Below are positions 2,370-42,467 of a DNA stretch of 64,000 nucleotides, piece after piece; the first letter of the stretch is position 1, and each line of letters opens with the position of its first letter. The stretch is from Metellina segmentata (lineage: Eukaryota > Arthropoda > Arachnida > Araneae > Tetragnathidae): positions 26,733,235 to 26,797,234 of the forward strand of contig OX375877.1 of the NCBI GenBank assembly GCA_947359465.1. The letters are read 5' to 3'. Under the pieces are notes generated by a model. The model did not search any database. It had not been told where the DNA came from and saw only the letters and a list, made by a program, of their open reading frames with translations. Both the position numbers and the translations under genes were made by a program.

Positions 2370-3290
2370 TTGTGAAGCAAAAAGGGCAATATTAGGTCAA
2401 GCCGCGCCAAACACAAGACCAAGAAAATGATATACATACTCCATGAAAGTTTTAACTGACACACAAGAGAGAAATACACCCAGGACAAGAAATACACCGA
2501 AGGTAGGACTTGGTAGGATAAAGATTTGGGAGTAATACATACAAGGTAGTTACAGAAAATGAATATGCCGTCTACAGCTTACAGGCTGCTAGTAAGCGTA
2601 GTGGGTGAAACTCACTACGCTAATACGAAATACACCCAGGACAAGTAATACACCGAAGGTAGGACTTGGACAACGACAGGACTTTAAGGATTAGGGAGCA
2701 ATACCCAAGGTAGTTACAGAAAATGAATCTGCCGTCTACAGCTTACAGGCTGCTAGCTAGCGTATTGGGCGAAACCCACCAAGACAAGGCGGACCCTCGA
2801 AACGCCAAGAAAATGGTTGATTGGGTTTTGTGAAGCAAAAAGGGCAATAATAAGTCAAGCCGCGCCAAACACAGGATCAAGAAAGGGTCATGCATACTCC
2901 AGGAAAGTTTTAACAGACACAGAAGAGAGAAATACACCCAGGACAAGTAATATACCGAATGTAGGATTTGGACAACGACAGGACTTTAAGGATTTGGGAG
3001 CAATACCCAAGGTAGTTACAGAAAATGAATCTGCCGTCTACAGCTTACAGGCTGCTAGCTAGCGTAGTGGTCAAAACCCACCAAGACAAGGCGGACCCTC
3101 GAAACGCCAAGAAAATGGTTGATTGGGTTTTGTGAAGCAAAAAGGGACATATTTGGTCAAGCCACGCCAAACACAGGATCAAGAAAGGGTCACACACACT
3201 CCAGGAAAGTTTTAACTGACACAGAAGAAAGAAATACATCCTGGGTAAGTTACATAAATCAAACCTGCACCGTTTAAAACTCGAAGGTTG
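2370..3290 (-). repeat. Tandemly amplified SINE-like repeat (family B)
   Basis: About three copies of one repeat lie in a row. The motif 'tgaagcaaaaaggg' is near 2376, 2831 and 3134, and the last two copies are spaced about 301 bp. A truncated copy lies at 2630-2800. Each unit has 'caagccgcgccaaacacag', 'agttttaactgacac', 'gaaatacacccagg' and 'tacagcttacaggctgcta'. The same modules occur singly elsewhere in the window (see 7045-7340), often with 'aatcgaacctgc', the reverse complement of a tRNA B-box-like GGTTCGATT. I therefore read the family as a tRNA-derived SINE on the minus strand, here expanded in tandem. Confidence 0.7.
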
Positions 3291-4138: not shown

Positions 4139-5400
4139 GGGATGCGACAACGACAGTGAAACATCGATGTTCAAAATTAAAACATCGATGTTGATAATAT
4201 AAAGTATAAGTGTACCAAATTTGGTGTGGATTGGTCAAACGGTGTAGATTTGTAGATAATATACACACATCTTTTTATACATATATAGATACTGTGTATT
4301 GCAATGTTGAACAAATATGTTAACGTATATTTCCTTTGTGCAACCGTTTTCAGAAGTCATGTGTTCTCGCTATATCGCCCTTCTCATTTTCTCCAAAACA
4401 AAAATTTTCAATTAACAAAAAAAAAAACTTTGGCTTTTACTCTAAGTGAAATTCAATGACATCCTCTTTAGCATTGAAATATATAAACCTATAGCGTACG
4501 GTGAAAAAAGACTGGCAAGAAAATTCAACCATTTAGTTGGATAAAAAGGATCCGCACCGAATGTAACTTAAGGCATTGTTCAAGACTTAACAATCGCTTT
4601 TGCCACGTCAAAAACAATGTATACAAAGTTTTGGCAATACTTCCGCTGTCAGCTTTAAGCAACTGCGGAGACACGTTCTAACCGTGTCCACAAATCGCGA
4701 AAACGACTTCGAACGTCTGTCATCATAACTTCATGCGGCTCGGATTTCAAATGCATTGCTAATATTGCCAAACCTATCATGAAAGAAAGCTATTGGATGA
4801 CAATTTAGAATAATCTAATTTTCAAATGTCCTCAATGCTAGGTCGCAGTACAAGTTTATGCCTAGAATTCTACTAGTCTCAATTTAGCTATGGCTGGTGA
4901 TTGGTATTGTGCATGCTCGCGGTAGGGATTAGGAATGCGACATCGACAGCAAAACATCAATGTTGATAATACATCGCACTAAAACCATCGATGCTTCTAA
5001 AATTCAGTGTATTTAAACTTTTTTCTCCATTTCTTAAAACTGGTTTAGCAACTAGAGATGCGACATCGGCTCCAATGCATCGAAGTTTTTATAAAACATC
5101 AATGTTTTGAAAACATCGACATCGATGTCGCATCTCTACTTTTCTGGCCCTTCACTCTCTTGGCCACTTTGGTCTTTAAGTATGTTCAATTTGCTGATTA
5201 TGAAAATTATGCTACTTACTTTGTTAATTTTAAAATTTTTATAACGATACTTTTTTTCATTTAAAAATAAAACATCGACAACGTAAAAACATTGACAAGT
5301 ATAAACATCGATGTTACAAAAACATCGACTACAATACATCGATGTTTTTTAGAAAACATCAACAGAACATCGATGTTTTTAAACATCTGTGTATTTAAAC
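4139..5400. repeat. Cluster of AACATCGATGTT-rich elements
   Basis: The palindrome AACATCGATGTT and variants (acatcaatgtt, acatcgac) recur near 4160, 4181, 4950-5000, 5070-5125 and 5265-5380, and in a separate block at 6893-7010. Several blocks start or end in 'gatgcgacatcg' / 'cgatgtcgcatc', as inverted terminal sequences would (for example 5053 and 5122-5138). Together they look like several small, nested or broken inverted-repeat elements of one family. The terminal 'agagatgcgacatcg' recalls hAT-type ends, but I found no clean target duplication. Confidence 0.6.
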
Positions 5401-16778: not shown

Positions 16779-17160
16779 GTACAGCATTATTCAAATTTCC
16801 CCAGTCCAGGTTTAGCAAAATTTAGACCTCAGCGTAAAGGACGTCTCAGTTTTCCATAACATTCTGGATTTAAATTTTGTTTCTCAATAAAAATTTGCAC
16901 AGAAAAGCAACATTCCAGTGCTCTTTTTGACACTACTGTTCACAAAATAAAACTGATCTTTGAAACCGAAATTTTTTATTTGCAAGCTCTAACTGTAATT
17001 GCAAGAGCTGGAATTATCTTTACCTCTTTTGATACTTGATTCTCAAAATGATTGAATCTCAAAATTCATGTCATTTTTTAACTGTGTTTGCTAGAATCCT
17101 CTAAATAAATGGTTACCTTTATGACCACCCTGTATTTAAAAACAATCAAAATAGCCTTAC

Positions 17161-17424
17161 CTAATAAACACAATTTAAATAGCTTTCCCAGCTGTGTCGG
17201 CAGAGTTGTAAGTTTATTGTGGCTCAAAATCAGTTCTCGCAGAGACCTCATGTCCCCAATTTCAGGAGGCAAACATCGTAATTTGTTGTGTGATACATTC
17301 AGATGAGCAAGATTAACTAAAAGAGATATTTCTCCAGGTAATTTCATCAGGGCATTATTGTTCAGGTACAAAGATGTCAAGGAAGTCATCTTCCACAGAG
17401 AAGAGCTCAAATGGCAAACGTCGC
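17161..17424 (-). CDS. CNOT6: CNOT6/twin-like deadenylase, exon 3 (leucine-rich repeats)
   Basis: 264-bp exon between acceptor CTATTTTTGCAG and donor G|GTAAGG, phase 1 at both ends. It encodes DVCHLSSSLWKMTSLTSLYL and then three further leucine-rich repeats with the LxxLxLxxNxLxxLPxxI spacing (NLAHLNVSHNKLRCLPPEI; SLRELILSHNKLTTLPTQL), ending FKLCLL. In CNOT6 proteins this LRR region sits N-terminal to the CCR4 endonuclease/exonuclease/phosphatase domain. It binds the CAF1 (CNOT7/8) deadenylase and so anchors the enzyme in the CCR4-NOT complex that shortens mRNA poly(A) tails. Repeat order, spacing and the LEITG|D junction with exon 2 point to CNOT6 rather than another LRR protein. Many repeat insertions lie in the introns on both sides. 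Confidence 0.9.
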
Positions 17425-20400
17425 CTGCAAAAATAGGCAGAAATTAAATACAACACACACATCATGACATACAAAACTTCAATGTAAACAAAATGCACTT
17501 AAACAAAATCATACTCTTTGACAGTCAACTAGCAGGAGCCAATCTGTATACATGGAATCTTTTACATAAATAAATGCACATTGTGATGACTAGATTTGGG
17601 CTTTGATGGAACAGTACAAAATTCAAAATCCAGAATCCTCCCGACCTCAGTCATTCCGGATTATTTGTATTTTTTTGTAAAAAACTCCTTTCCTAATCTA
17701 ACTTACGCACACAGTACTATATATATATAATAATTGGTCTGTGCATTATTTATGTCCGTAACACGTTTGCAATACTAAAAAATAGCAGATATATAAATAG
17801 GAATAATTATTTTAAAAGGAATATATATATTTTTAATACAATGCAACACATTTTACTTTGAAATCTTCTAATTTTTCTGCGTGGTATTTACTCTGAACAT
17901 GTGCGTTATTTTGTGCTGTTTCATCAATTTGGTCCAGGTTGAACGTTTTGTTATCTAAAAATTACCAGACGGGTGAAGAGGCAGAAAGATTAAAAAAAAG
18001 TGAGAGAAAAAGAAAAAACAAAACGTCCCGATTCTGGATGTCTGGATTTGGGACTTAGTACTGTATTTACTTTTTTGATTCACACATCATTAGGCACAGG
18101 AGTCTATGTTGGTGTTAGTTTATATTTATGAGTAGAACCGTTGACAGGTGCTTTGAATAAAATAAATGATAAATTTGCATCTTGCAAGCAAAAATTAGGC
18201 ATCCAAAATGGCAATTGGGTCATAATTCAACAGTCAAAATGAAATTTATACATGACAAATATGACCAACAAGAGCTAATTTCGAGCCCTCCTTATGTAAC
18301 TACTGAGAAAAAAGTAAATTTCAATAGAATATTGTTATGTTTATTTCTGTTTCTTTAGGACTATTCAATTAAAAGTAACATTACTATACGATGGGGTTAA
18401 AAAGTTGCTGAGATATTTGAAGATTGCAAACCCATCCCCAATGACAGTTGCAAAGCTTCACATAAAGTATTTGAATAGGGAGGTAACACAAAGAGTATTG
18501 TTTTAATCTTACAGTTAATGTGTGGGTGAACTTGTACGTGATTGCAAAATATAATTATCACAAGACAATTCTCATAATTTAAAATGAATTACATTTAATC
18601 ACGTAGATTTCACTTATGCAAATTAAAATTACGAGTTATTTGCTGCTTAATGAAATAAAATATGTCAAAACTAAAGTGATTTCATTAAGTGGCAGGAACT
18701 GTAGTCTGTCAACCAAGAACTGCTCTAGATAAAATCTAAGCAATGATGGTCACTATAGAAACAGGGCTCATGCATTTTGAGTCGAACGAGGTTTTGGTGT
18801 GGTGACAGGGAGGTAGATTGAGATTTAACTGACTCAAGCGCTTACTTTAGCTGAACTGCACAGGATTCGATTGGATACTTGGGTTTTAAGGAACAAGGTC
18901 CAAAAGCAAGCAAGCTGTGTCAAACAAGATAGAAACACCAGCAAAAGTATAAAATACTTAAAAACTCAAGTCGAAATCAAAGATAAAATGTAGATTTAAA
19001 ACATGTAAAACAGATGAGAATAAAATTTCAAACAATAGTCGGATGATAACTAAGAGCATTGTTCTGCAGCAGAATTAACGATAAAGACAATGATTAATTA
19101 CTTAGACAAATTTTGAAAATGAGTTGGTAACATCAACTAAATGAGAATGAAAAGCTGATTTTAGTGATGTCGTGATTCTCAAAGTCAGTGAACCTGTCAT
19201 TGCATTTTAATTAATAGGTCTATAGGTTGTTTTGCAGTTTTATGCCACAGTGGCTATATTTGGCGAAGCTGTGCCAAACACAAGACAAACTTCATGTAAA
19301 AAATGTTGTGAAAAGAAAAGAAAAAAAAGGATTATTCAAGATTTTTTTTCCTTTTACAAAATGGTCACTAGAAAAAGGGCTCATGCATTTTGAGTAGGGA
19401 AGAGTAGAAAGAAGATTTGGTGAATTTAGCAACAGGTAGGTACTAGTGTTTACTAGACAGTAAACCCCATAGGAAAAAAAGATTACCAGAGATTCTTGGT
19501 TACGGGAAGCTCTAATGAATTGATTAGCACACAAGGAATAATAGGCCTGTAACAGCTGTGAATTCTTCAAATGGTAAAACTGGAGAAAATGTTCAACCTA
19601 AATTTCCTTTTCGAAGTGTTTTGAAAAAAAAATAGAGCTTTTCAAACTGATTGTATTTTTTTTTACACATACCAGACTTAGTTTTACCTTACAAAGAAAT
19701 ATTCAAGTCATTTTGATTTGACCTATCACAAAGGAATGCACCATACTAATAGAAATCTTTCAATACATTGAACTTACATAGTTGAATCTGTTCACAGAAA
19801 TTAATTATCTGTTCTCGTAGAGATAAAATGTTGGCTAACACCAGTCCTCGTGATAACCAAAACACTTGTTTTTTAAAAATTGTTCTTAAAAGAGGAGGAA
19901 AGATAGAAAAAAGTGAGAGAAAAAAAACTGCTGGTTAGCAAAACGTTCGGATTTTGGACAATTCCAGACTTGGGACTTTGTACTATAGTAATGAAAATTT
20001 TCTGTTACAGCCAGAATGAAGTATAAAACCTGTGCCACATCAGAAGCGTTCTTTTCAGGTCTTATTGCTCGTTGAAAGAATTGTCTTTGCTTTTGCTATT
20101 CATCTTTTGAATTTTGCAGTATCAATTTTCATGCCTCTTCCAAATTTCGGTTATTTGTAGTTCTCATGAGCGTTACAATGATGAATATACATTGAAAATA
20201 GGTAAATCATTTAATTAACACCGCACTGGAGCAACACAGCGGGCTATTGGTGAGGTTTAGGATCAAACACGAAGGAAAAGATCCGAGGACACAACGTAAT
20301 TTTGAACCACAGTCAGATGATGTCACACATGAGCTGGCATCCAACTCCAAAGATATGCACTGAAATTCCTTGATATTGAAATTGCAGCATCACAAGGCTT

Positions 20401-28918: not shown

Positions 28919-29727
28919 TTTTATAGACTCTATAACAAGAAAATCGACCCACCAAGAAGGAGTTGTCCGATTGCGATAAACATTGGTAGATGGTGAAGAA
29001 CATACATAAAAAAAACCGATTAAAATTCCGAACAATTGAATGATTTATTTCAGAGTTTGACCATTACAAAGGGAGGAAATCAATAAGGCGTTGTTCTACC
29101 TCTGGCCTGGATGCGTCACCCGGCGCAGCATCGACTGAAAAAGTTCCCGGATGGTGTCCTGCGGAATTTCTTGCAATCTCCGAATGTCGTTCTAAATGGT
29201 CAACATTCCGGGATGGTTGTAATCGCCTTCCCTTAACGTCCCAAATGTACTCTATGGGAGAGAGATCAGGAGACCTAGCAGGCCAAGGAAGTGTTGGGAA
29301 AGCTTGATGACAATTTATAGCATTGTGTGCCATGTGCGGCAGGGCATTATCTTGTTGAAAAGTAATTCCGGGGTGTTGCAAAAGGAACGGTACCACAACC
29401 GGTTGTAGAGTATTGTCTACGTACCGCTGTACTGTAAGTGTACCAGAAATGACTACCAAAGGGCTATCAAAGGATATGGAATCCCAGACCATAACGCCCT
29501 GTTTTGGGCATGTGTGGTATGCGATTGTAAGTGCAGGATTCCCACGCTGCCCTGGACGTGTCTAGAAACATCTGCGGTTGTCGTTAGGACACAGTTGGAA
29601 ACGGGACTCGTACGAAAGACTATACGTCCCCAGTCAGCGCCGTTCCAAGTGGATCGAACCCGGCACCACTGTAATTCTGCACCTTCTTGGTGCGTTGATT
29701 CTTTTGTTATCTATATATATATAATTC
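28919..29727 (-). mobile_element. Tc1-like element, broken transposase
   Basis: Inverted sequences about 45 bp long (28921-28966 and 29682-29727, containing 'accttcttggtg' and 'gattcttttgttat') bound the element. On the minus strand 29690-29500 encodes remains of the DWGRIVF catalytic segment with frameshifts. 29492-29064 is then an open 142-codon frame with VWDSISFDS, TFQQDNALPHMA, and PWPARSPDLSPIEYIWD, which carries the final acidic catalytic residue region of the Tc1/DDE family. The N-terminal DNA-binding part is gone, so it is non-autonomous. Confidence 0.85.
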
Positions 29728-32364: not shown

Positions 32365-32517
32365 TGAAACTAGCCACTGGTGACCAGCACAGCGTTGCTC
32401 GTGATGGGGTCAGGAGTGACTACTGCTCGCTAACTCTCGCCAACCCTGGTGATTGCAACGCATTTCCATTTGGTTCGCTTCGCAAACCATCACCACTGGC
32501 CAATAATTGCCAATGTC
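32365..32517 (+). repeat. Family D repeat, 5' half, target of the palindrome
   Basis: 'tagccactggtgaccagcac', 'gcgttgctcgtgatggggtc' and 'tggttcgcttcgcaaac' match 16268-16460. The copy stops exactly at the left edge of the palindromic element. 3' sequence of the same repeat family resumes, in the same orientation, just after the right edge (42468-42522, 'attaattttaaaatatttta' and 'ttggggtggacaca'). Confidence 0.75.
32512..32517. repeat. Left target-site duplication AATGTC
   Basis: AATGTC abuts the first base of the palindromic element, and the identical AATGTC follows its last base at 42462-42467. Confidence 0.85.
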
Positions 32518-32552
32518 AGTAGATAGATTTTGAGAGTTCTGGCGCATAAAGG

Positions 32553-32612
32553 GAAGTTGGGCAGGAAGGGAAGGGAAAGTGGGCAGGAAGAGAAGTTGGG
32601 CAGGAAAGGAGG
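32553..32612. repeat. Subterminal purine-rich direct repeats, left arm
   Basis: 'gggaagttgggcaggaag', 'aaagtgggcaggaag' and 'agaagttgggcaggaaag' are three tandem versions of one 14-18-bp unit starting 35 bp inside the element end. The mirror copy is at 42367-42426. Repeats this close to an end are often binding sites for the transposition or replication proteins. That role is inferred. Confidence 0.6.
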
Positions 32613-32764
32613 GTAGAAGTGATAAGACAATTGCTTGTGGCCGTTTGATAAGAAACTGAAGATGAACATGATAACGTCAATTTGTTGACAAGTTGCCATG
32701 GTGGTGAATGACTGGTAGCGCCTTCTGGTGGTCAGATGATCAAACATATTATTTTAATTAAAAA

Positions 32765-32830
32765 GGAATTACTTGGATTCGAACCCGGGACCATCGTGAT
32801 GCGATGCGAGCATGCTAGCCGTTAGGCCAT
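32765..32830 (-). repeat. tRNA-like relic, left arm
   Basis: On the minus strand it reads 'ggcctaacggctagcatg' (A-box-like), then GGTTCGAATCC (B-box). The T-stem pairs only at three of five positions and no clean acceptor stem closes, so this is not a working tRNA gene. The right-arm copy at 42149-42214 differs by a single base (cgcgatgg for cacgatgg). Confidence 0.6.
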
Positions 32831-32834
32831 TGTT

Positions 32835-35735
32835 GACTTATCAAGCAGTGGTTATTTATCATACAATTCCAGTACTCCCTTCTGCAGATAAGGACTTGTA
32901 CTTTTTCTTTTTCACTACAAATGTATTGAGAATGGTTTTAAATTTATTTGTAGGTAATTAATACTTTTATAAAATAACAGGTAGCGCAATCTAGTGAAAG
33001 GTTGAACAATTAAACGTACTTAAGTGAAAATACTATAATATAAAGGACCTATAAGATTTCTTAAATTATAGGCTAAATGACAGGCACAGCCATCTAGTGA
33101 TGGAAAATGTAACAATTAGTTTTAATTAATTTATTTTCTAGCTGTTAACTTGTATTTTTAGCGTGATACTTGAGAATTAAATGGAGAATTATTTAAAAGA
33201 AAAATAATAATACGTGGATTCGGACCTAACAAAAGGTAATAGCGGTCAACCCTTTTTACACAAGCACTGTAGACGTTCGTCCACTACTACCTATGTGATC
33301 GTGTTATATTTAAAATAGTCTATCATTTTGTTAATTCATATAGTACATACTTCCAAACATTGAAAAGTCTAGAAGCTTCTGGAAAGGGTGACTAAGAAAT
33401 AATTGTACCCATAAAATAGTAAGATAACAGAGTTTAACACCAATTAGACATACTATCAAAGATTGAAATGCCTAGAAGTCTATGGAACTTGTGACATTAT
33501 GACTAAGGATTGTGTAGCGTGTGTAAGATTAAAGAGAATGTACGAAGTTATACACGGAGTCTGATAAAAAGTGACTCAAAAGATTAGCTTAAACTACCGA
33601 AGTACACGTGTTATGGTATCTGAAAAATGTTTGGGGCCAGCAAAGAAAGTAATTATACTGCTTGATAAATAAGAGGCCTTTAAAAGCATAGTTGGAGTGA
33701 GTTCTTGAGTCTTTGAATTACTTTGCTTCTTTGGATTTTTACCCTTCTACTGTTTTTATATACATTATGGATTCTGGTGATATCAGGCCCACAAAGAAAT
33801 TATGTGCCCCCTAAAAGATATTTGAAAAACGTTACAATTAATATTTATACCTTTGTGAATATTATTTTCTTAGTCTTACATATTATTGTTATTTTAAAGA
33901 AACTTTTTGCGTGTCTTACCATATACACTGTATTTTGGATTATCATTTTTTTTTTAATATTAAATATAAGTTTTATAAATGGTCTTTTGCAATGCATGAT
34001 CTGAAATTAAATTTTCTTTGCTATAAATATTTTAGTTTTTTTAAAATTTAGATGCTTTTAGTTAATCACTAATTATACATTGGATGCTATAGCACATATT
34101 TTATTACATAAATTATTTTTCAACACTCTACACTTCAGTAAAAGTGCAAAAAAAAAAATTATTTTTTCTTTTATTTGAAAACTTTGCAAGACCCGTAGTA
34201 CTATGATCATGTTTCCTTGTGCATTTGTTTGAATTGAACAAAAGAAAACTATCCAATATACCACAGAAGTACAATACGGGACTTAGAAATGTAAGTTGGT
34301 CAAAAGAAAAAGAAACAGTGGAACATAGTTAACTAAACTTACAAGATTTGATGACCATAACAAATGAGTAGAAACGCAATTGACTCCTTGTACATTTGAA
34401 GAAATTATAATCGTATTGAAATCTAAACCATATGTTATTTTCTAATTATTCTTTCCCAACCGTATTATTTTTTAATTTAAATAAATCTGTCTAAATTTTA
34501 GTGATTAATATTTTAGATTTACAAACTTTTTTAAATGAAATTTTCTTTGATTTATATTGTAAAAAGTTAAGATGTTTTCACACAAAAATTAGATTCCATC
34601 ATACATATTTTAATAATTAAGATTTAAATAAATATATGCAAATGAAACATGCATTAGATATTATTACCAAACTTTTAAATACAGATTAAAAAAAAAAAAT
34701 TATTTTCCATTTCAAATAAGATGTTTAGCAGTTTGATTCTTAAAGCGTGTTTTTATGCATGATTTAAAAAAAAAAAAAAATTAAGAAACCTGTAAAGTAA
34801 AATATTTTTTACCTTTATTTGAAGCTTTGCAAGAACCATACTATGAAGATGTTTCCTTGTACATAAGAAGTAGTGAAAATTAGTATAAGAAACCTTTTGT
34901 CCTTGAAGTTCTAAATTAAATGTTATTTTTTTCTAATTCTCTTGCAAACCATTCATATGCAGTTTAATTTGCAGAGCCAAATATCAATTTCGAAAAGGCA
35001 TTTTACAAGTTACTTTGTATATGTCTTTTTAATTTTAGATATACTGCAATGCTACGTTAAGTGGATAGTCAGAGGGTTTTCAGATTTTGAAAATAATGTG
35101 AACACTTCTGTGCTGCTAAACAAAATAAATTTTTGCCCTTTCTTGATAGTTAATGCATAATATAAAGATTTACTCACATCACTAATAGTTTTACACATGA
35201 ATAAAATTAAATAACAACCGAAAATTTTAAATACTAATCAATTTTTAAATGAACATATCTTGGTCTGTTTCTACAATTCTAAAAACTTAGAGTCCAGACT
35301 TTCCAAGGGAGACACACTTTCCCATGCTATGGGACAGAAAGGAAGTCCACATATGTATTTTTCAACATATCGTAGTTTTCCGATCTTTGGCACTAAGTTT
35401 ATGCTTATAAGTCGATAAGTTAAAACGAATACTTGAAGCTACTTGCCCTTTTATAGCAATGCATCCGTATTCACATACCTTTTTGAAGAAACCTTCTTGA
35501 GTCTGAAATTCACAATTGCACAAATATTATACATTGCTATTCAAAAAGCGTAAGCTATTCTTGGAAAAATAATTGTATACTGCGGGCACGAAGAGCTACA
35601 TAGCAGCATATTCTTACTAATCAGTAAAGTTAATCTAATCTTAGTCTTATCTTTTGTTAGTAACTATGAACACATAAGTGATGAATGTACTCAGAAAACA
35701 CGTGCTTGTGATGATGCGACATCTACTTGTGTTGT
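32835..35735. other. Left arm interior, AT-rich, no supported gene
   Basis: The longest frame (33723-34004) would encode a very hydrophobic product with at least two membrane-like segments, but it starts at TTG, not ATG, and its composition follows the local T-richness. Others (34942-35160) also lack an ATG. I treat the stretch as non-coding unless transcript data show otherwise. The mirror is 39243-42144. Confidence 0.5.
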
Positions 35736-35740
35736 GGAAA

Positions 35741-36029
35741 TGACGTCATATTGATCGAGTAGAGTGGAGTTGTGTTTCCTGCTGACGGAAGTGACGTCAT
35801 ACTAATCGAGTGTAGTTTAGTTGTTTTCGATTGCTGCTGCTGACGTCATCATGCTAGAGTTGAGTTTAGTTGTTTTATTATAGGTGTTTTTCGGATCTGG
35901 CAATAGGAATATTTAACTTTTATGGAATGGCAACGACTGACGAAATGCATATGATGACCAAAGTGCGGTGACGTGAGTGACGTCACAGTCTGGATGGTTG
36001 AAAAAATTGCGGTGTCTTGTGTGACGTCA
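35741..36029 (+). promoter_or_regulatory. Cluster of five TGACGTCA (CRE/ATF) sites upstream of the PC4-like gene
   Basis: Perfect TGACGTCA octamers lie at 35741, 35792, 35841, 35978 and 36022 (start positions), plus a near match TGACGTGA at 35969. All are within 290 bp and end about 290 bp before the ATG at 36318. TGACGTCA is the consensus for bZIP factors of the CREB/ATF family. Several spacers also share 'ttgatcgag'/'ctaatcgag'. This is most simply the promoter/enhancer of the gene downstream. The action of a host bZIP factor is inferred. Confidence 0.7.
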
Positions 36030-36317
36030 GACTTCTTATACGTGAAAGGACTCATTCCCACAAGTCTGATCATGTTCTCAATGACGCTGTGCCATCATAA
36101 GGTGGAAAGAAGTTGGTTTGAGTTGTATTTGTCCTGCTAGGAATATTTTCATTGGCTGTCTAAGATTTGTACTTGCTTTTTGGCAACAACGGCAGCTATA
36201 ACAGCGTTTTAATTTCGATTTCGTGTGATAAAATCTTCTTTCCCTTGGTGAAAAGTTGCTGTCGTGGTTACTAGAAATTTCTTCTTGAGAAACGTTAAGT
36301 CTTAAAAGGAAACAAAA

Positions 36318-37256
36318 ATGAAACGCTTTAGCAATCAACCTGAAATATGCAAAAGAATTCGTGGTGTTGATCAAACTATTTCATCGGATGTCTCAAAATT
36401 AACCATGCAAACTATTCCAGACAACATGTTCCCTCTTGGAAACTATTCATTTGTGGTGATTAATAACTTCATCGGCTCTACTCGAGTGCATGTACGAAAA
36501 TTTGCTTTGGATGAAAATGGAGTTTTGCTACCAACGAAGGAAGGTATCTCCCTATATCCAAACACATGGAATATTCTGATGAGAAAGGTTAGCAACTTTT
36601 TCGCACATGCTTCTGACTCCGACGTTAAAGTAATACAGAAAGAAGTCTGTCTTTCGAAAGTGTGTGATAACGGAAAAATGGACTTGGTTTTACAAAGACT
36701 ATTTCAGAAAAGAGACCATTCACTACAATTCTTACCCAACTCTGTTTTTCTGAATTCTGAGCAGTACTTTAAACTGTGTCAACACTATGAGAGTGTATCA
36801 TATATGCTGAAAATATCGCTTTTGAAATATTCCCTACAGTATTTTGTGAAAAAGGAAGTGCAAAAGAACTTTCCCAGTGAGGTTTACAAACCTTACTACG
36901 GTGATCCTGATAACCCTGAGGGCTGGAGAGAAGTTACAACTTCACTGTGTAAGTGTCTGAAGAATATTATAGCGCTTAACATTACTGTTCTTTTGGACTG
37001 CTTAAGTTGTAAAAATGAAATTATCAATCAATCTGTACATACATGCATGAACATGAGCGCTGATGAACGCTTTTGCGAATTCTTTACTCCTGCGTTATAT
37101 TCTGTAAACTGGAGAGATTTTGCTTTTAACTTTGTGAAAGAAAACCATGGAATTGTAAACTTCTTTTATATTGTATTTGAGGGTGACTTTTTTGATTGCT
37201 TGAATACAACTGATGTTTTTAATACTGTTAGAGAGATGTATGTGAAAGGTCTGTAA
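36318..37256 (+). CDS. PC4-like domain protein, 312 residues, left-arm copy
   Basis: Intact ATG-to-TAA frame with a good start context (acaaaaATGa) and an AATAAA 49 bp after the stop. Residues about 36-95 look like the PC4/p15 (Sub1) single-stranded-DNA-binding fold. A hydrophobic strand (NYSFVVINNF) is followed by VHVRKFAL, an acidic-Gly turn (DENG) and then PTKEGISLYPNTW, which resembles the conserved 'P..KGI.L....W' end of that domain. PC4 proteins bind ssDNA or melted DNA, usually as dimers, and act in transcription or replication. Residues about 100-312 are unfamiliar: Lys-rich and aromatic, with about 12 cysteines, including CLSC and several CxxxC-type spacings. PC4 itself is about 125 residues, so this protein has a long extra C-terminal region. 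Identical reading in both arms implies selection, recent origin or gene conversion. Confidence 0.75.
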   Translation: MKRFSNQPEICKRIRGVDQTISSDVSKLTMQTIPDNMFPLGNYSFVVINNFIGSTRVHVRKFALDENGVLLPTKEGISLYPNTWNILMRKVSNFFAHASDSDVKVIQKEVCLSKVCDNGKMDLVLQRLFQKRDHSLQFLPNSVFLNSEQYFKLCQHYESVSYMLKISLLKYSLQYFVKKEVQKNFPSEVYKPYYGDPDNPEGWREVTTSLCKCLKNIIALNITVLLDCLSCKNEIINQSVHTCMNMSADERFCEFFTPALYSVNWRDFAFNFVKENHGIVNFFYIVFEGDFFDCLNTTDVFNTVREMYVKGL

Positions 37257-37304
37257 AATAAGTACAATGTATTCTCTAACAAAATTAACATCTTATGTGC
37301 TTTA

Positions 37305-37310
37305 AATAAA
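37305..37310 (+). terminator. Polyadenylation signal AATAAA, left-arm gene
   Basis: AATAAA 49 bp past the stop codon, followed by a T-rich downstream stretch (37318-37360). Its mirror serves the right-arm gene. Confidence 0.6.
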
Positions 37311-37440
37311 TGTTCATGCTTTTTCATTTGTGTGTTATCAAAATTATTCTTTTTTTACATGCTTTGGGTTGATTTGTAAAACGCATCTTTTTCAGAACTT
37401 TGAAGTACGCGTTTTAAAGTTACTAAGGTTTAAAGTCATT

Positions 37441-37543
37441 CTACATCACATGATTAGCACGTGACACACCACGTGATAGAAATTCCTGCATATAACAGGA
37501 ATTTCTATCACGTGGTGTGTCACGTGCTAATCATGTGATGTAG
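37441..37543. repeat. Centre of symmetry with 7-bp spacer and CACGTG sites
   Basis: The arms meet at aattcctg-CATATAA-caggaatt, so the unpaired loop would be only 7 nt. Each side carries two CACGTG hexamers (37458 and 37469 on the left, mirrored on the right), the consensus E-box for bHLH proteins. Cruciform or snap-back hairpin formation is predicted for such a short spacer. Confidence 0.75.
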
Positions 37544-37673
37544 AATGACTTTAAACCTTAGTAACTTTAAAACGCGTACTTCAAAGTTCTGAAAAAGATG
37601 CGTTTTACAAATCAACCCAAAGCATGTAAAAAAAGAATAATTTTGATAACACACAAATGAAAAAGCATGAACA

Positions 37674-37679
37674 TTTATT
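37674..37679 (-). terminator. Polyadenylation signal AATAAA, right-arm gene
   Basis: TTTATT on the plus strand, mirror of 37305-37310, positioned 49 bp beyond the stop codon of the minus-strand gene. The two transcription units converge on the centre. Confidence 0.6.
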
Positions 37680-37727
37680 TAAAGCACATAAGATGTTAAT
37701 TTTGTTAGAGAATACATTGTACTTATT

Positions 37728-38666
37728 TTACAGACCTTTCACATACATCTCTCTAACAGTATTAAAAACATCAGTTGTATTCAAGCAATCAAAAAAGTCA
37801 CCCTCAAATACAATATAAAAGAAGTTTACAATTCCATGGTTTTCTTTCACAAAGTTAAAAGCAAAATCTCTCCAGTTTACAGAATATAACGCAGGAGTAA
37901 AGAATTCGCAAAAGCGTTCATCAGCGCTCATGTTCATGCATGTATGTACAGATTGATTGATAATTTCATTTTTACAACTTAAGCAGTCCAAAAGAACAGT
38001 AATGTTAAGCGCTATAATATTCTTCAGACACTTACACAGTGAAGTTGTAACTTCTCTCCAGCCCTCAGGGTTATCAGGATCACCGTAGTAAGGTTTGTAA
38101 ACCTCACTGGGAAAGTTCTTTTGCACTTCCTTTTTCACAAAATACTGTAGGGAATATTTCAAAAGCGATATTTTCAGCATATATGATACACTCTCATAGT
38201 GTTGACACAGTTTAAAGTACTGCTCAGAATTCAGAAAAACAGAGTTGGGTAAGAATTGTAGTGAATGGTCTCTTTTCTGAAATAGTCTTTGTAAAACCAA
38301 GTCCATTTTTCCGTTATCACACACTTTCGAAAGACAGACTTCTTTCTGTATTACTTTAACGTCGGAGTCAGAAGCATGTGCGAAAAAGTTGCTAACCTTT
38401 CTCATCAGAATATTCCATGTGTTTGGATATAGGGAGATACCTTCCTTCGTTGGTAGCAAAACTCCATTTTCATCCAAAGCAAATTTTCGTACATGCACTC
38501 GAGTAGAGCCGATGAAGTTATTAATCACCACAAATGAATAGTTTCCAAGAGGGAACATGTTGTCTGGAATAGTTTGCATGGTTAATTTTGAGACATCCGA
38601 TGAAATAGTTTGATCAACACCACGAATTCTTTTGCATATTTCAGGTTGATTGCTAAAGCGTTTCAT
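37728..38666 (-). CDS. PC4-like domain protein, 312 residues, right-arm copy
   Basis: Predicted protein identical to the left-arm product over all 312 residues. See that entry for the domain reading. Convergent transcription of two identical genes would produce complementary RNA if either transcript reads through the 470-bp central region, with possible consequences for host small-RNA silencing (inferred). Confidence 0.75.
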   Translation of the reverse strand: MKRFSNQPEICKRIRGVDQTISSDVSKLTMQTIPDNMFPLGNYSFVVINNFIGSTRVHVRKFALDENGVLLPTKEGISLYPNTWNILMRKVSNFFAHASDSDVKVIQKEVCLSKVCDNGKMDLVLQRLFQKRDHSLQFLPNSVFLNSEQYFKLCQHYESVSYMLKISLLKYSLQYFVKKEVQKNFPSEVYKPYYGDPDNPEGWREVTTSLCKCLKNIIALNITVLLDCLSCKNEIINQSVHTCMNMSADERFCEFFTPALYSVNWRDFAFNFVKENHGIVNFFYIVFEGDFFDCLNTTDVFNTVREMYVKGL

Positions 38667-38954
38667 TTTTGTTTCCTTTTAAGACTTAACGTTTCTCAAG
38701 AAGAAATTTCTAGTAACCACGACAGCAACTTTTCACCAAGGGAAAGAAGATTTTATCACACGAAATCGAAATTAAAACGCTGTTATAGCTGCCGTTGTTG
38801 CCAAAAAGCAAGTACAAATCTTAGACAGCCAATGAAAATATTCCTAGCAGGACAAATACAACTCAAACCAACTTCTTTCCACCTTATGATGGCACAGCGT
38901 CATTGAGAACATGATCAGACTTGTGGGAATGAGTCCTTTCACGTATAAGAAGTC

Positions 38955-39243
38955 TGACGTCACACAAGACACCGCAATTTTTTCAACCATCCAGACTGTG
39001 ACGTCACTCACGTCACCGCACTTTGGTCATCATATGCATTTCGTCAGTCGTTGCCATTCCATAAAAGTTAAATATTCCTATTGCCAGATCCGAAAAACAC
39101 CTATAATAAAACAACTAAACTCAACTCTAGCATGATGACGTCAGCAGCAGCAATCGAAAACAACTAAACTACACTCGATTAGTATGACGTCACTTCCGTC
39201 AGCAGGAAACACAACTCCACTCTACTCGATCAATATGACGTCA
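38955..39243 (-). promoter_or_regulatory. Cluster of five TGACGTCA sites, right arm
   Basis: Mirror of 35741-36029, with TGACGTCA at 38955, 38999, 39136, 39185 and 39236, upstream of the minus-strand gene. All five octamers are preserved in both arms. Confidence 0.7.
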
Positions 39244-42148
39244 TTTCCACAACACAAGTAGATGTCGCATCATCACAAGCACGTGTTTTCTGAGTACATT
39301 CATCACTTATGTGTTCATAGTTACTAACAAAAGATAAGACTAAGATTAGATTAACTTTACTGATTAGTAAGAATATGCTGCTATGTAGCTCTTCGTGCCC
39401 GCAGTATACAATTATTTTTCCAAGAATAGCTTACGCTTTTTGAATAGCAATGTATAATATTTGTGCAATTGTGAATTTCAGACTCAAGAAGGTTTCTTCA
39501 AAAAGGTATGTGAATACGGATGCATTGCTATAAAAGGGCAAGTAGCTTCAAGTATTCGTTTTAACTTATCGACTTATAAGCATAAACTTAGTGCCAAAGA
39601 TCGGAAAACTACGATATGTTGAAAAATACATATGTGGACTTCCTTTCTGTCCCATAGCATGGGAAAGTGTGTCTCCCTTGGAAAGTCTGGACTCTAAGTT
39701 TTTAGAATTGTAGAAACAGACCAAGATATGTTCATTTAAAAATTGATTAGTATTTAAAATTTTCGGTTGTTATTTAATTTTATTCATGTGTAAAACTATT
39801 AGTGATGTGAGTAAATCTTTATATTATGCATTAACTATCAAGAAAGGGCAAAAATTTATTTTGTTTAGCAGCACAGAAGTGTTCACATTATTTTCAAAAT
39901 CTGAAAACCCTCTGACTATCCACTTAACGTAGCATTGCAGTATATCTAAAATTAAAAAGACATATACAAAGTAACTTGTAAAATGCCTTTTCGAAATTGA
40001 TATTTGGCTCTGCAAATTAAACTGCATATGAATGGTTTGCAAGAGAATTAGAAAAAAATAACATTTAATTTAGAACTTCAAGGACAAAAGGTTTCTTATA
40101 CTAATTTTCACTACTTCTTATGTACAAGGAAACATCTTCATAGTATGGTTCTTGCAAAGCTTCAAATAAAGGTAAAAAATATTTTACTTTACAGGTTTCT
40201 TAATTTTTTTTTTTTTAAATCATGCATAAAAACACGCTTTAAGAATCAAACTGCTAAACATCTTATTTGAAATGGAAAACAATTTTTTTTTTAATCTGTA
40301 TTTAAAAGTTTGGTAATAATATCTAATGCATGTTTCATTTGCATATATTTATTTAAATCTTAATTATTAAAATATGTATGATGGAATCTAATTTTTGTGT
40401 GAAAACATCTTAACTTTTTACAATATAAATCAAAGAAAATTTCATTTAAAAAAGTTTGTAAATCTAAAATATTAATCACTAAAATTTAGACAGATTTATT
40501 TAAATTAAAAAATAATACGGTTGGGAAAGAATAATTAGAAAATAACATATGGTTTAGATTTCAATACGATTATAATTTCTTCAAATGTACAAGGAGTCAA
40601 TTGCGTTTCTACTCATTTGTTATGGTCATCAAATCTTGTAAGTTTAGTTAACTATGTTCCACTGTTTCTTTTTCTTTTGACCAACTTACATTTCTAAGTC
40701 CCGTATTGTACTTCTGTGGTATATTGGATAGTTTTCTTTTGTTCAATTCAAACAAATGCACAAGGAAACATGATCATAGTACTACGGGTCTTGCAAAGTT
40801 TTCAAATAAAAGAAAAAATAATTTTTTTTTTGCACTTTTACTGAAGTGTAGAGTGTTGAAAAATAATTTATGTAATAAAATATGTGCTATAGCATCCAAT
40901 GTATAATTAGTGATTAACTAAAAGCATCTAAATTTAAAAAAAACTAAAATATTTATAGCAAAGAAAATTTAATTTCAGATCATGCATTGCAAAAGACCAT
41001 TTATAAAACTTATATTTAATATTAAAAAAAAAATGATAATCCAAAATACAGTGTATATGGTAAGACACGCAAAAAGTTTCTTTAAAATAACAATAATATG
41101 TAAGACTAAGAAAATAATATTCACAAAGGTATAAATATTAATTGTAACGTTTTTCAAATATCTTTTAGGGGGCACATAATTTCTTTGTGGGCCTGATATC
41201 ACCAGAATCCATAATGTATATAAAAACAGTAGAAGGGTAAAAATCCAAAGAAGCAAAGTAATTCAAAGACTCAAGAACTCACTCCAACTATGCTTTTAAA
41301 GGCCTCTTATTTATCAAGCAGTATAATTACTTTCTTTGCTGGCCCCAAACATTTTTCAGATACCATAACACGTGTACTTCGGTAGTTTAAGCTAATCTTT
41401 TGAGTCACTTTTTATCAGACTCCGTGTATAACTTCGTACATTCTCTTTAATCTTACACACGCTACACAATCCTTAGTCATAATGTCACAAGTTCCATAGA
41501 CTTCTAGGCATTTCAATCTTTGATAGTATGTCTAATTGGTGTTAAACTCTGTTATCTTACTATTTTATGGGTACAATTATTTCTTAGTCACCCTTTCCAG
41601 AAGCTTCTAGACTTTTCAATGTTTGGAAGTATGTACTATATGAATTAACAAAATGATAGACTATTTTAAATATAACACGATCACATAGGTAGTAGTGGAC
41701 GAACGTCTACAGTGCTTGTGTAAAAAGGGTTGACCGCTATTACCTTTTGTTAGGTCCGAATCCACGTATTATTATTTTTCTTTTAAATAATTCTCCATTT
41801 AATTCTCAAGTATCACGCTAAAAATACAAGTTAACAGCTAGAAAATAAATTAATTAAAACTAATTGTTACATTTTCCATCACTAGATGGCTGTGCCTGTC
41901 ATTTAGCCTATAATTTAAGAAATCTTATAGGTCCTTTATATTATAGTATTTTCACTTAAGTACGTTTAATTGTTCAACCTTTCACTAGATTGCGCTACCT
42001 GTTATTTTATAAAAGTATTAATTACCTACAAATAAATTTAAAACCATTCTCAATACATTTGTAGTGAAAAAGAAAAAGTACAAGTCCTTATCTGCAGAAG
42101 GGAGTACTGGAATTGTATGATAAATAACCACTGCTTGATAAGTCAACA
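39244..42148. other. Right arm interior, AT-rich, no supported gene
   Basis: Mirror of 32835-35735. The arms differ here in three homopolymer lengths (about 40214, 40293 and 40831) and one substitution next to the 40293 run. Those length changes account for the 5-bp length difference between arms. Confidence 0.5.
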
Positions 42149-42214
42149 ATGGCCTAACGGCTAGCATGCTCGCATCGCATCGCGATGGTCCCGGGTTCGA
42201 ATCCAAGTAATTCC
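42149..42214 (+). repeat. tRNA-like relic, right arm
   Basis: Plus-strand 'ggcctaacggctagcatg', then GGTTCGAATCC. Same degenerate structure as the left-arm copy, with one substitution. Confidence 0.6.
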
Positions 42215-42366
42215 TTTTTAATTAAAATAATATGTTTGATCATCTGACCACCAGAAGGCGCTACCAGTCATTCACCACCATGGCAACTTGTCAACAAATT
42301 GACGTTATCATGTTCATCTTCAGTTTCTTATCAAACGGCCACAAGCAATTGTCTTATCACTTCTAC

Positions 42367-42426
42367 CCTCCTTTCCTGCCCAACTTCTCTTCCTGCCCAC
42401 TTTCCCTTCCCTTCCTGCCCAACTTC
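42367..42426. repeat. Subterminal pyrimidine-rich direct repeats, right arm
   Basis: Mirror of 32553-32612: three versions of 'ttcctgcccaactt(ctc)'. Confidence 0.6.
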
Positions 42427-42461
42427 CCTTTATGCGCCAGAACTCTCAAAATCTATCTACT

Positions 42462-42467
42462 AATGTC
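42462..42467. repeat. Right target-site duplication AATGTC
   Basis: Identical to 32512-32517. Confidence 0.85.

Follow-up and report, generated by a model that had tools for sequence, protein, structure and literature searches.

Maverick ends accompanied by 6-bp target duplications are already known: the available part of a study of vertebrate Mavericks (PMC8097293) describes such duplications together with (AG)3 or (AGT)2 end motifs. The present analysis concerns a 64-kb stretch of the genome of the spider Metellina segmentata (C5:26733235-26797234, hereafter the window; GC content 35%, in a genome of 1.665 Gb), in which a nearly perfect palindrome of 9,944 bp was confirmed at positions 32518-42461. 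This element and its relatives resemble Polintons/Mavericks (adintovirus-type) in their 6-bp target duplications and AGT...ACT-type ends, in the 21-bp ends of the window's family, identical to those of elements bearing PolB and integrase, and in a PC4-domain gene shared with a 13.4-kb Maverick; they differ in having no PolB, integrase or capsid gene, in forming one inverted repeat over their whole length, and in the homogenisation of their arms. The genome holds dozens of palindromic elements derived from Maverick (Polinton) transposons. We consider it probable that the window element is a non-autonomous, whole-length palindromic Polinton/Maverick derivative that, we infer, was born by a strand switch, is integrated in trans and propagates by foldback. 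At the level of sequence, the copies compared below demonstrate movement as a unit, Polinton-type ends with 6-bp duplications, ends common to Polintons bearing integrase and PolB, and arms that change together.

Several other systems invite comparison. Foldback elements (Drosophila FB, Galileo and Tetris) likewise have long inverted repeats and many copies, and Tetris, in the available part of its description, also feeds a satellite; the elements considered here differ from them in their Polinton ends, 6-bp duplications and gene-carrying arms. FB-type foldback elements have other ends, other duplication lengths and another transposase. Near-perfect inverted arms are also found in palindromic miniature inverted-repeat transposable elements (MITEs) and in Y-chromosome palindromes; MITEs are short and gene-free, and Y palindromes have neither the ends of a transposon nor target duplications. 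In adenoviruses, symmetric palindromic defective genomes, which are culture by-products of protein-primed replication, mirror one genome end at both termini, whereas the elements here are chromosomally inserted and propagate as families with one centre. Neither these adenovirus genomes nor a whole-length palindromic Polinton was found in the literature searched (open-licence papers only).

The arms of 4,971 and 4,966 bp, the 7-bp spacer and the AATGTC on both sides that were given in a preliminary description of the window are all borne out by the sequence (Table 1). The termini are AGTAGATAGATTTTG...CAAAATCTATCTACT, the arms differ from each other by three substitutions and five gapped bases, and the predicted fold of the central 201 nt is a single unbroken hairpin with a 7-nt loop. 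Insertion into a repeat, also claimed there, is upheld: when the flanks are joined with one AATGTC, 38 other copies of the host repeat cross the junction at 76-85% identity (best 40 of 3,102 candidates scored, two of the 40 being the window's own flanks; the alignments were not inspected base by base).

A genome search with the outer 2.5 kb of the arm gave at least 86 matches, many of them plus/minus pairs 10-11 kb apart (best 40 of 1,454 candidates scored). Among 21 loci with AGTAGATAG ends that were examined, window included (C3:128.1, C6:5.56, C6:5.67 and C4:114.1 were left out), 14 are complete palindromes of 9.9-11.3 kb with both ends and exact 6-bp target duplications, namely the window copy, C9:46.9, C4:87.7, C10:93.8, C3:125.6, C3:47.8, C4:113.2, C2:17.6, C2:126.8, C3:8.0, C4:66.2, C11:48.4, C11:53.1 and C10:91.9. 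C3:47.8 lacks bases at its right end and is still counted as complete; the TATATA duplication of C3:8.0 sits in a TA run and is therefore uninformative. A 7-nt centre, from which that of the window differs by one base, is common to 12 of the 14 in either orientation, the exceptions being C11:53.1 (a different centre) and C10:93.8 (region altered by deletion). Because many loci with differing exact 6-bp duplications have a single shared centre, transposition as a palindromic unit, as proposed in the preliminary description, is confirmed, and further copies with the same ends and 6-bp duplications do exist. Loop orientation was discarded as evidence, since it is not informative in a palindrome.

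A second family was found via PC4 relatives ~62% identical that lie in minus/plus pairs. A pattern search for its AGTAGTGGAAAT ends yielded 69 ends and 32 end pairs, 27 of which span 10.4-11.4 kb; among the matches listed, mirrored PC4 matches occur in 22 of these 27, one match in three and none in two. C7:46.9, the copy that was read through, is a 10,664-bp palindrome with AGTAGTGGAAAT ends and the duplication CAGGTC, self-complementary at 99.7%, with a PC4 and an IAP (BIR plus RING) gene in each arm; for nine others the palindrome is deduced from the spacing of the ends and from mirrored PC4 matches. All ten second-family copies read at both ends (C7:46.9 and nine more, those nine being among the 22) have exact duplications. 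Chance is thus excluded for the two families together, in which an exact 6-bp duplication flanks 24 of the 24 palindromes read at both ends (14 + 10; one uninformative). The insertion site approximates NAYRTN, with a purine at position 4 in 26 of 26 cases (the 24 palindromes, C11:82.2 and C11:1.79). The AGTAGT of the second-family ends equals the (AGT)2 motif given for vertebrate Mavericks in the available part of PMC8097293, and the AGTAGA of the window is one base off. Beside the centre 66 bp align at 88% between the two families, which weakly suggests a common palindromic ancestor.

The Polinton link that had been suspected is established by ends common to PolB- and integrase-bearing elements in the same genome. 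The 19.3-kb Polinton C11:1.79 (C11:1793650-1812959) has the same 21-bp ends as the window family and the duplication TGCAAC; its left end carries a 360-codon frame with an integrase core (rve, PF00665, E 2e-10) and a chromodomain, its interior a PolB match (C11:1803765, 97% to the C11:82.2 frame), and its right end matches C11:82.2 on the PolB side at 96% identity. A parental element with PolB and integrase, as the preliminary description envisaged, thus exists, but what the window arm shares with its integrase-side end is ~800 bp at 80% identity, not ~5 kb. C4:53.15 (C4:53148132-53161272; 13.1 kb) is likewise bounded on either side by these 21 bp and contains a PolB match and an open 360-codon integrase frame; a third open integrase frame lies on C3, 1.1 kb inside a AGTAGATAG end, and on C10 a fourth relative (85%) is interrupted by stops. 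In C11:82.2 (10.6 kb, duplication TACGTG) an AlkB/PC4 arm on one side is joined to PolB in several frames on the other (PF03175, E 6e-20, for one frame).

The other contributor is C7:55.85 (C7:55847720-55861144), a 13.4-kb Maverick with AGTAGAAGGG ends and the duplication CACGGC; ends and duplication were predicted from the right flank, a pattern search then placed the element, and the left flank reads CACGGC. Its PolB is a 1,217-codon frame without a match to any Pfam polymerase model; identity is 46% with the PolB frame of C11:82.2 and 48% with the PolB of an adintovirus. Protease-like (E 0.008) and ATPase-like (E 0.0015) frames are present as weak matches below Pfam cut-offs, and were seen in this element only. 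Spiders are the source of several of the nearest named PolB matches, but the top match is from a lacewing. The PC4 protein of the palindrome arms is ~99% identical to that of this lineage. Judged by these identities, the window element is a mosaic of two Maverick lineages, its ends coming from one and its PC4 module from the AGTAGAAGGG-ended one (99.4%).

Comparison of arms within and between copies shows that the two arms of a copy are as a rule closer to each other than to other copies. Over the outer 3.9 kb the two arms differ by 0-4 substitutions in 13 of the 14 copies (11 in C11:53.1), against 10-37 to the closest other copy for 12 of the 14; in a tree of arms, the two arms of a copy are sisters in 13 of 14. 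When variable sites without gaps are compared, the arms agree in 1,854 of 1,876 cases. Of the private substitutions, 55 occur in both arms and 19 in one (44 versus 11 without C11:53.1), and of the gap runs of three or more, 110 and 32, respectively, runs inherited by several copies being counted repeatedly. The length of the AlkB-type frame (225, 221, 201 or 15 codons) is equal between arms in all 13 copies compared, the altered PC4 module of C10:91.9 occurs in both arms, and in the second family the two PC4 matches score identically in 13 of 22 pairs. Because arms are sisters, private changes are shared and frame lengths are equal, the two arms of a copy are, on this comparison, descended from one arm and change together. 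There are exceptions: in C10:93.8 ~430 bp next to the centre are gone from one arm, the stretches flanking the gene pair of C7:67.9 differ in length by ~640 bp, and PC4 match scores are unequal within C4:127.97 and within C7:20.8. When the elements are cut at half length, large arm differences appear in C10:93.8 (93) and C11:53.1 (119), owing to the one-sided deletion in the former and a 598-bp loop in the latter.

The origin of such a structure can be followed in C11:53.1, which is a foldback of a C11:82.2-like PolB-bearing element. It tracks the right end of C11:82.2 inward to position 4864, switches strand, and runs outward from 5466, with a 4-bp overlap at the switch point and a single-copy loop of 598 bp; its arm segments are 99.95% and 99.5% alike, and its left arm also lacks ~150 bp. 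By its alignment, the structure is that expected of a template switch. Since its centre differs from the 7-nt centre of 12 of the 13 other complete palindromes, palindrome formation probably happened at least twice. On the preferred reading, Polinton DNA synthesis would switch template, either to its own strand or to the sister, and copy in reverse, so that both termini of the product carry one and the same Polinton end. Helper PolB would replicate the palindrome, and helper integrase, acting on the two ends, would insert it in trans. In each cycle the displaced single strand would fold into a ~5-kb hairpin closed by the 7-nt loop, and copying or repair of the hairpin would make the arms alike again; the sisterhood of arms would be explained, because hairpin copying would re-make both arms from one.

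The 316-codon frame of each arm contains a PC4 domain (PF02229, E 5e-9; the PDB matches are PC4 chains) and is the only window-element frame with a Pfam match and the only one of at least 150 codons; ten other left-arm frames of 66-100 codons match no Pfam model. Protease and ATPase genes are absent from the element's frames (frame list and Pfam), no transposase match was obtained in it with Pfam, and no integrase match at the window is among the 113 listed. The earlier statement that no Polinton protein is recognisable thus holds for this copy but not for the asymmetric elements with the same ends, which carry PolB and integrase. Similarly, one gene per arm is correct for the window and C9:46.9 copies and incorrect for the other 12 of the 14 complete palindromes, in which each arm has in addition an AlkB-type frame of 201-225 codons (that of one relative, L041, matches PF13532, E 5e-28); in the window and C9:46.9 copies ~620 bp of this gene are gone from both arms and 15 codons remain. 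The preliminary description had not mentioned the PC4 domain, the AlkB-type gene deleted here, the homogenisation of arms or the mosaic origin.

Because the ratio of nonsynonymous to synonymous substitution rates (dN/dS) of PC4 between the window family and the second family is 0.24, the protein is, by this measure, under constraint, part of that history falling within asymmetric Mavericks. It probably serves replication by binding single-stranded DNA, a role that fits the fact that PC4 proteins bind single-stranded DNA. One metagenomic relative of the protein (36% identity) was found in a set of 5.8 billion proteins, and none in the IMG/VR scan or in phage records. Its identification as a known transposase received no support from Pfam or PDB matches.

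Other explanations for these observations have to be weighed. The same palindromic derivative might move as double-stranded DNA, with its arms evened later by chromosomal gene conversion of the arm-to-arm kind that operates in primate Y palindromes. Long near-identical inverted arms are good substrates for this process, which would likewise leave the arms of a copy as sisters, as they are in 13 of 14; the persistence of the one-arm lesions in C10:93.8 and C7:67.9 argues against fast conversion, and the unequal PC4 match scores in C4:127.97 and C7:20.8, as well as the near-identical arms of C2:126.8 and C4:113.2, which are themselves nearly identical, also count against it, none of these points being decisive. 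We hold it to be doubtful, though the main rival. It is improbable that the palindromes are virus satellites, replicated by Maverick/adintovirus proteins, packaged in capsids and spreading between cells or hosts. In its favour, the PC4-bearing C7:55.85 shares 48% identity in PolB with an adintovirus and shows weak matches to protease and ATPase, the palindromes, at 9.9-11.3 kb, fall below the 13.4 kb of this Maverick, and the IAP and AlkB-type genes recall viral accessory genes; however, there is no particle, no palindrome outside this genome, and no relative of the PC4 protein in the IMG/VR or phage scans. An autonomous palindrome whose PC4-domain protein is the transposition enzyme would account for this being the sole window-element frame with a Pfam match, but the same gene adjoins PolB in Mavericks, a Polinton integrase would suit both the ends and the length of the duplication, and PC4 is a DNA-binding fold not known to act as a nuclease, so that this explanation is very unlikely. 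Palindromes are assembly hazards, and two one-armed copies (L038, L041) adjoin runs of N; an artefact of assembly, or a head-to-head pair of insertions, is nevertheless rejected as having next to no probability, given outer duplications in 24 of 24 palindromes, one centre common to different loci, arm-specific differences, and repeat copies that match the empty site.

Several points also weigh against the preferred reading, that of a Polinton derivative propagated by foldback. The hairpin, an episome and movement itself were not observed in what is a sequence analysis, and the homogenisation of arms could also come from chromosomal gene conversion; C2:126.8 and C4:113.2 differ by 0 from their nearest other copy and so do not discriminate. 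PolB, integrase and capsid genes are lacking from the palindromes (window-element frames and Pfam), and none of the Polintons analysed was shown to be a complete, unbroken helper; C11:1.79 has a frame with DUF1759 (L054:3-743), presumably BEL/Pao-like, near its right, PolB-side end. An asymmetric partner with AGTAGTGG ends was not found among the PolB matches listed.

Instability is expected of long perfect palindromes, but dozens have here spread as mobile units, many with open genes. With them, two questions can be put to the test in natural sequences: whether strand displacement replicates Polintons/Mavericks as linear DNA outside the chromosome, of which palindromic by-products are the expected trace, and whether Polintons/Mavericks sustain satellites in trans. 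The palindromes also show one way for acquired genes (AlkB-type, IAP) to be doubled and to stay identical. It is conceivable, and we propose it tentatively as somewhat short of probable, that what is inherited is one arm able to form a hairpin, as a Polinton satellite whose mirror half is re-made in each cycle, and that this is an old and stable lifestyle. Mutations, deletions and acquired genes (AlkB-type, IAP, PC4) would then become symmetric automatically, and the palindromic state would have persisted since before the two families (PC4 62% identical) diverged and not be a series of accidents.

Table 1. Features of the palindromic element, in window positions
Feature	Position	Strand	Remarks
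Left target-site duplication	32512..32517	.	AATGTC; sequence and empty-site match
Left arm	32518..37488	+	4,971 bp; starts AGTAGATAGATTTTGAGAGTT
Outer arm, first 800 bp	32518..33317	+	~80% identical to integrase-side end of 19.3-kb Polinton C11:1.79
AlkB-type gene remnant	33767..33814	+	15 codons (MDSGDIRPTKKLCAP)
PC4 module	35736..37352	+	1,617 bp; 99.4% identical to right-end region of Maverick C7:55847720-55861144
PC4-domain protein, left arm	36306..37256	+	316-codon open frame; first Met codon 36318
Centre	37489..37495	.	7 nt; loop of predicted hairpin
Right arm	37496..42461	-	4,966 bp; reverse complement of left arm
PC4-domain gene, second copy	37728..38678	-	convergent with first
Right target-site duplication	42462..42467	.	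AATGTC

The seven loci with AGTAGATAG ends that are not complete palindromes are varied. C8:40.0 has lost its left end, C3:43.6 is a deleted palindrome with a large deletion in one arm and a duplication matching at 5 of 6 bases, and C11:82.2 is the asymmetric, PolB-bearing element described above. Four are one-armed: C4:60.3 and C13:24.2 adjoin runs of N, and C10:62.5 and C1:103.9 are broken at or near the centre. Two one-armed copies have their breaks at or next to the 7-nt hairpin loop (L043 near 5120, L046 near 254), where the loop looks as if it had been cut, and have no target duplication there. Insertion of half-elements is not supported, because C10:62.5 and C1:103.9 do not repeat their 6 bp at the broken centre.

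The PC4 gene varies in orientation and in state. In both arms of C10:91.9 (L033/L034), which has the centre of the window family, and of C7:46.9 (L049/L050) it runs opposite to the gene of the window arm, and the module appears to have undergone a symmetrical exchange or inversion. At ~20 places (e.g., C1:75637780, C8:80170592) there is a further PC4 class, 57-59% identical and unpaired among the matches listed; most copies have one TAG and two TAA internally, as would befit a degraded but multiplied relative.

At C11:55.14-56.44 Mb AGTAGATAG ends alternate plus/minus ~4.45 kb apart, with a spacing of ~6.58 kb over parts of the region; here a Polinton-ended element seems to have been amplified to a tandem, satellite-like array near mid-chromosome. 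Elsewhere in the window are a 302-bp tandem repeat (2627-3238) and, recognised by eye, a leucine-rich-repeat frame (17081-17443) and a Tc1/mariner-like transposase frame (29067-29561).

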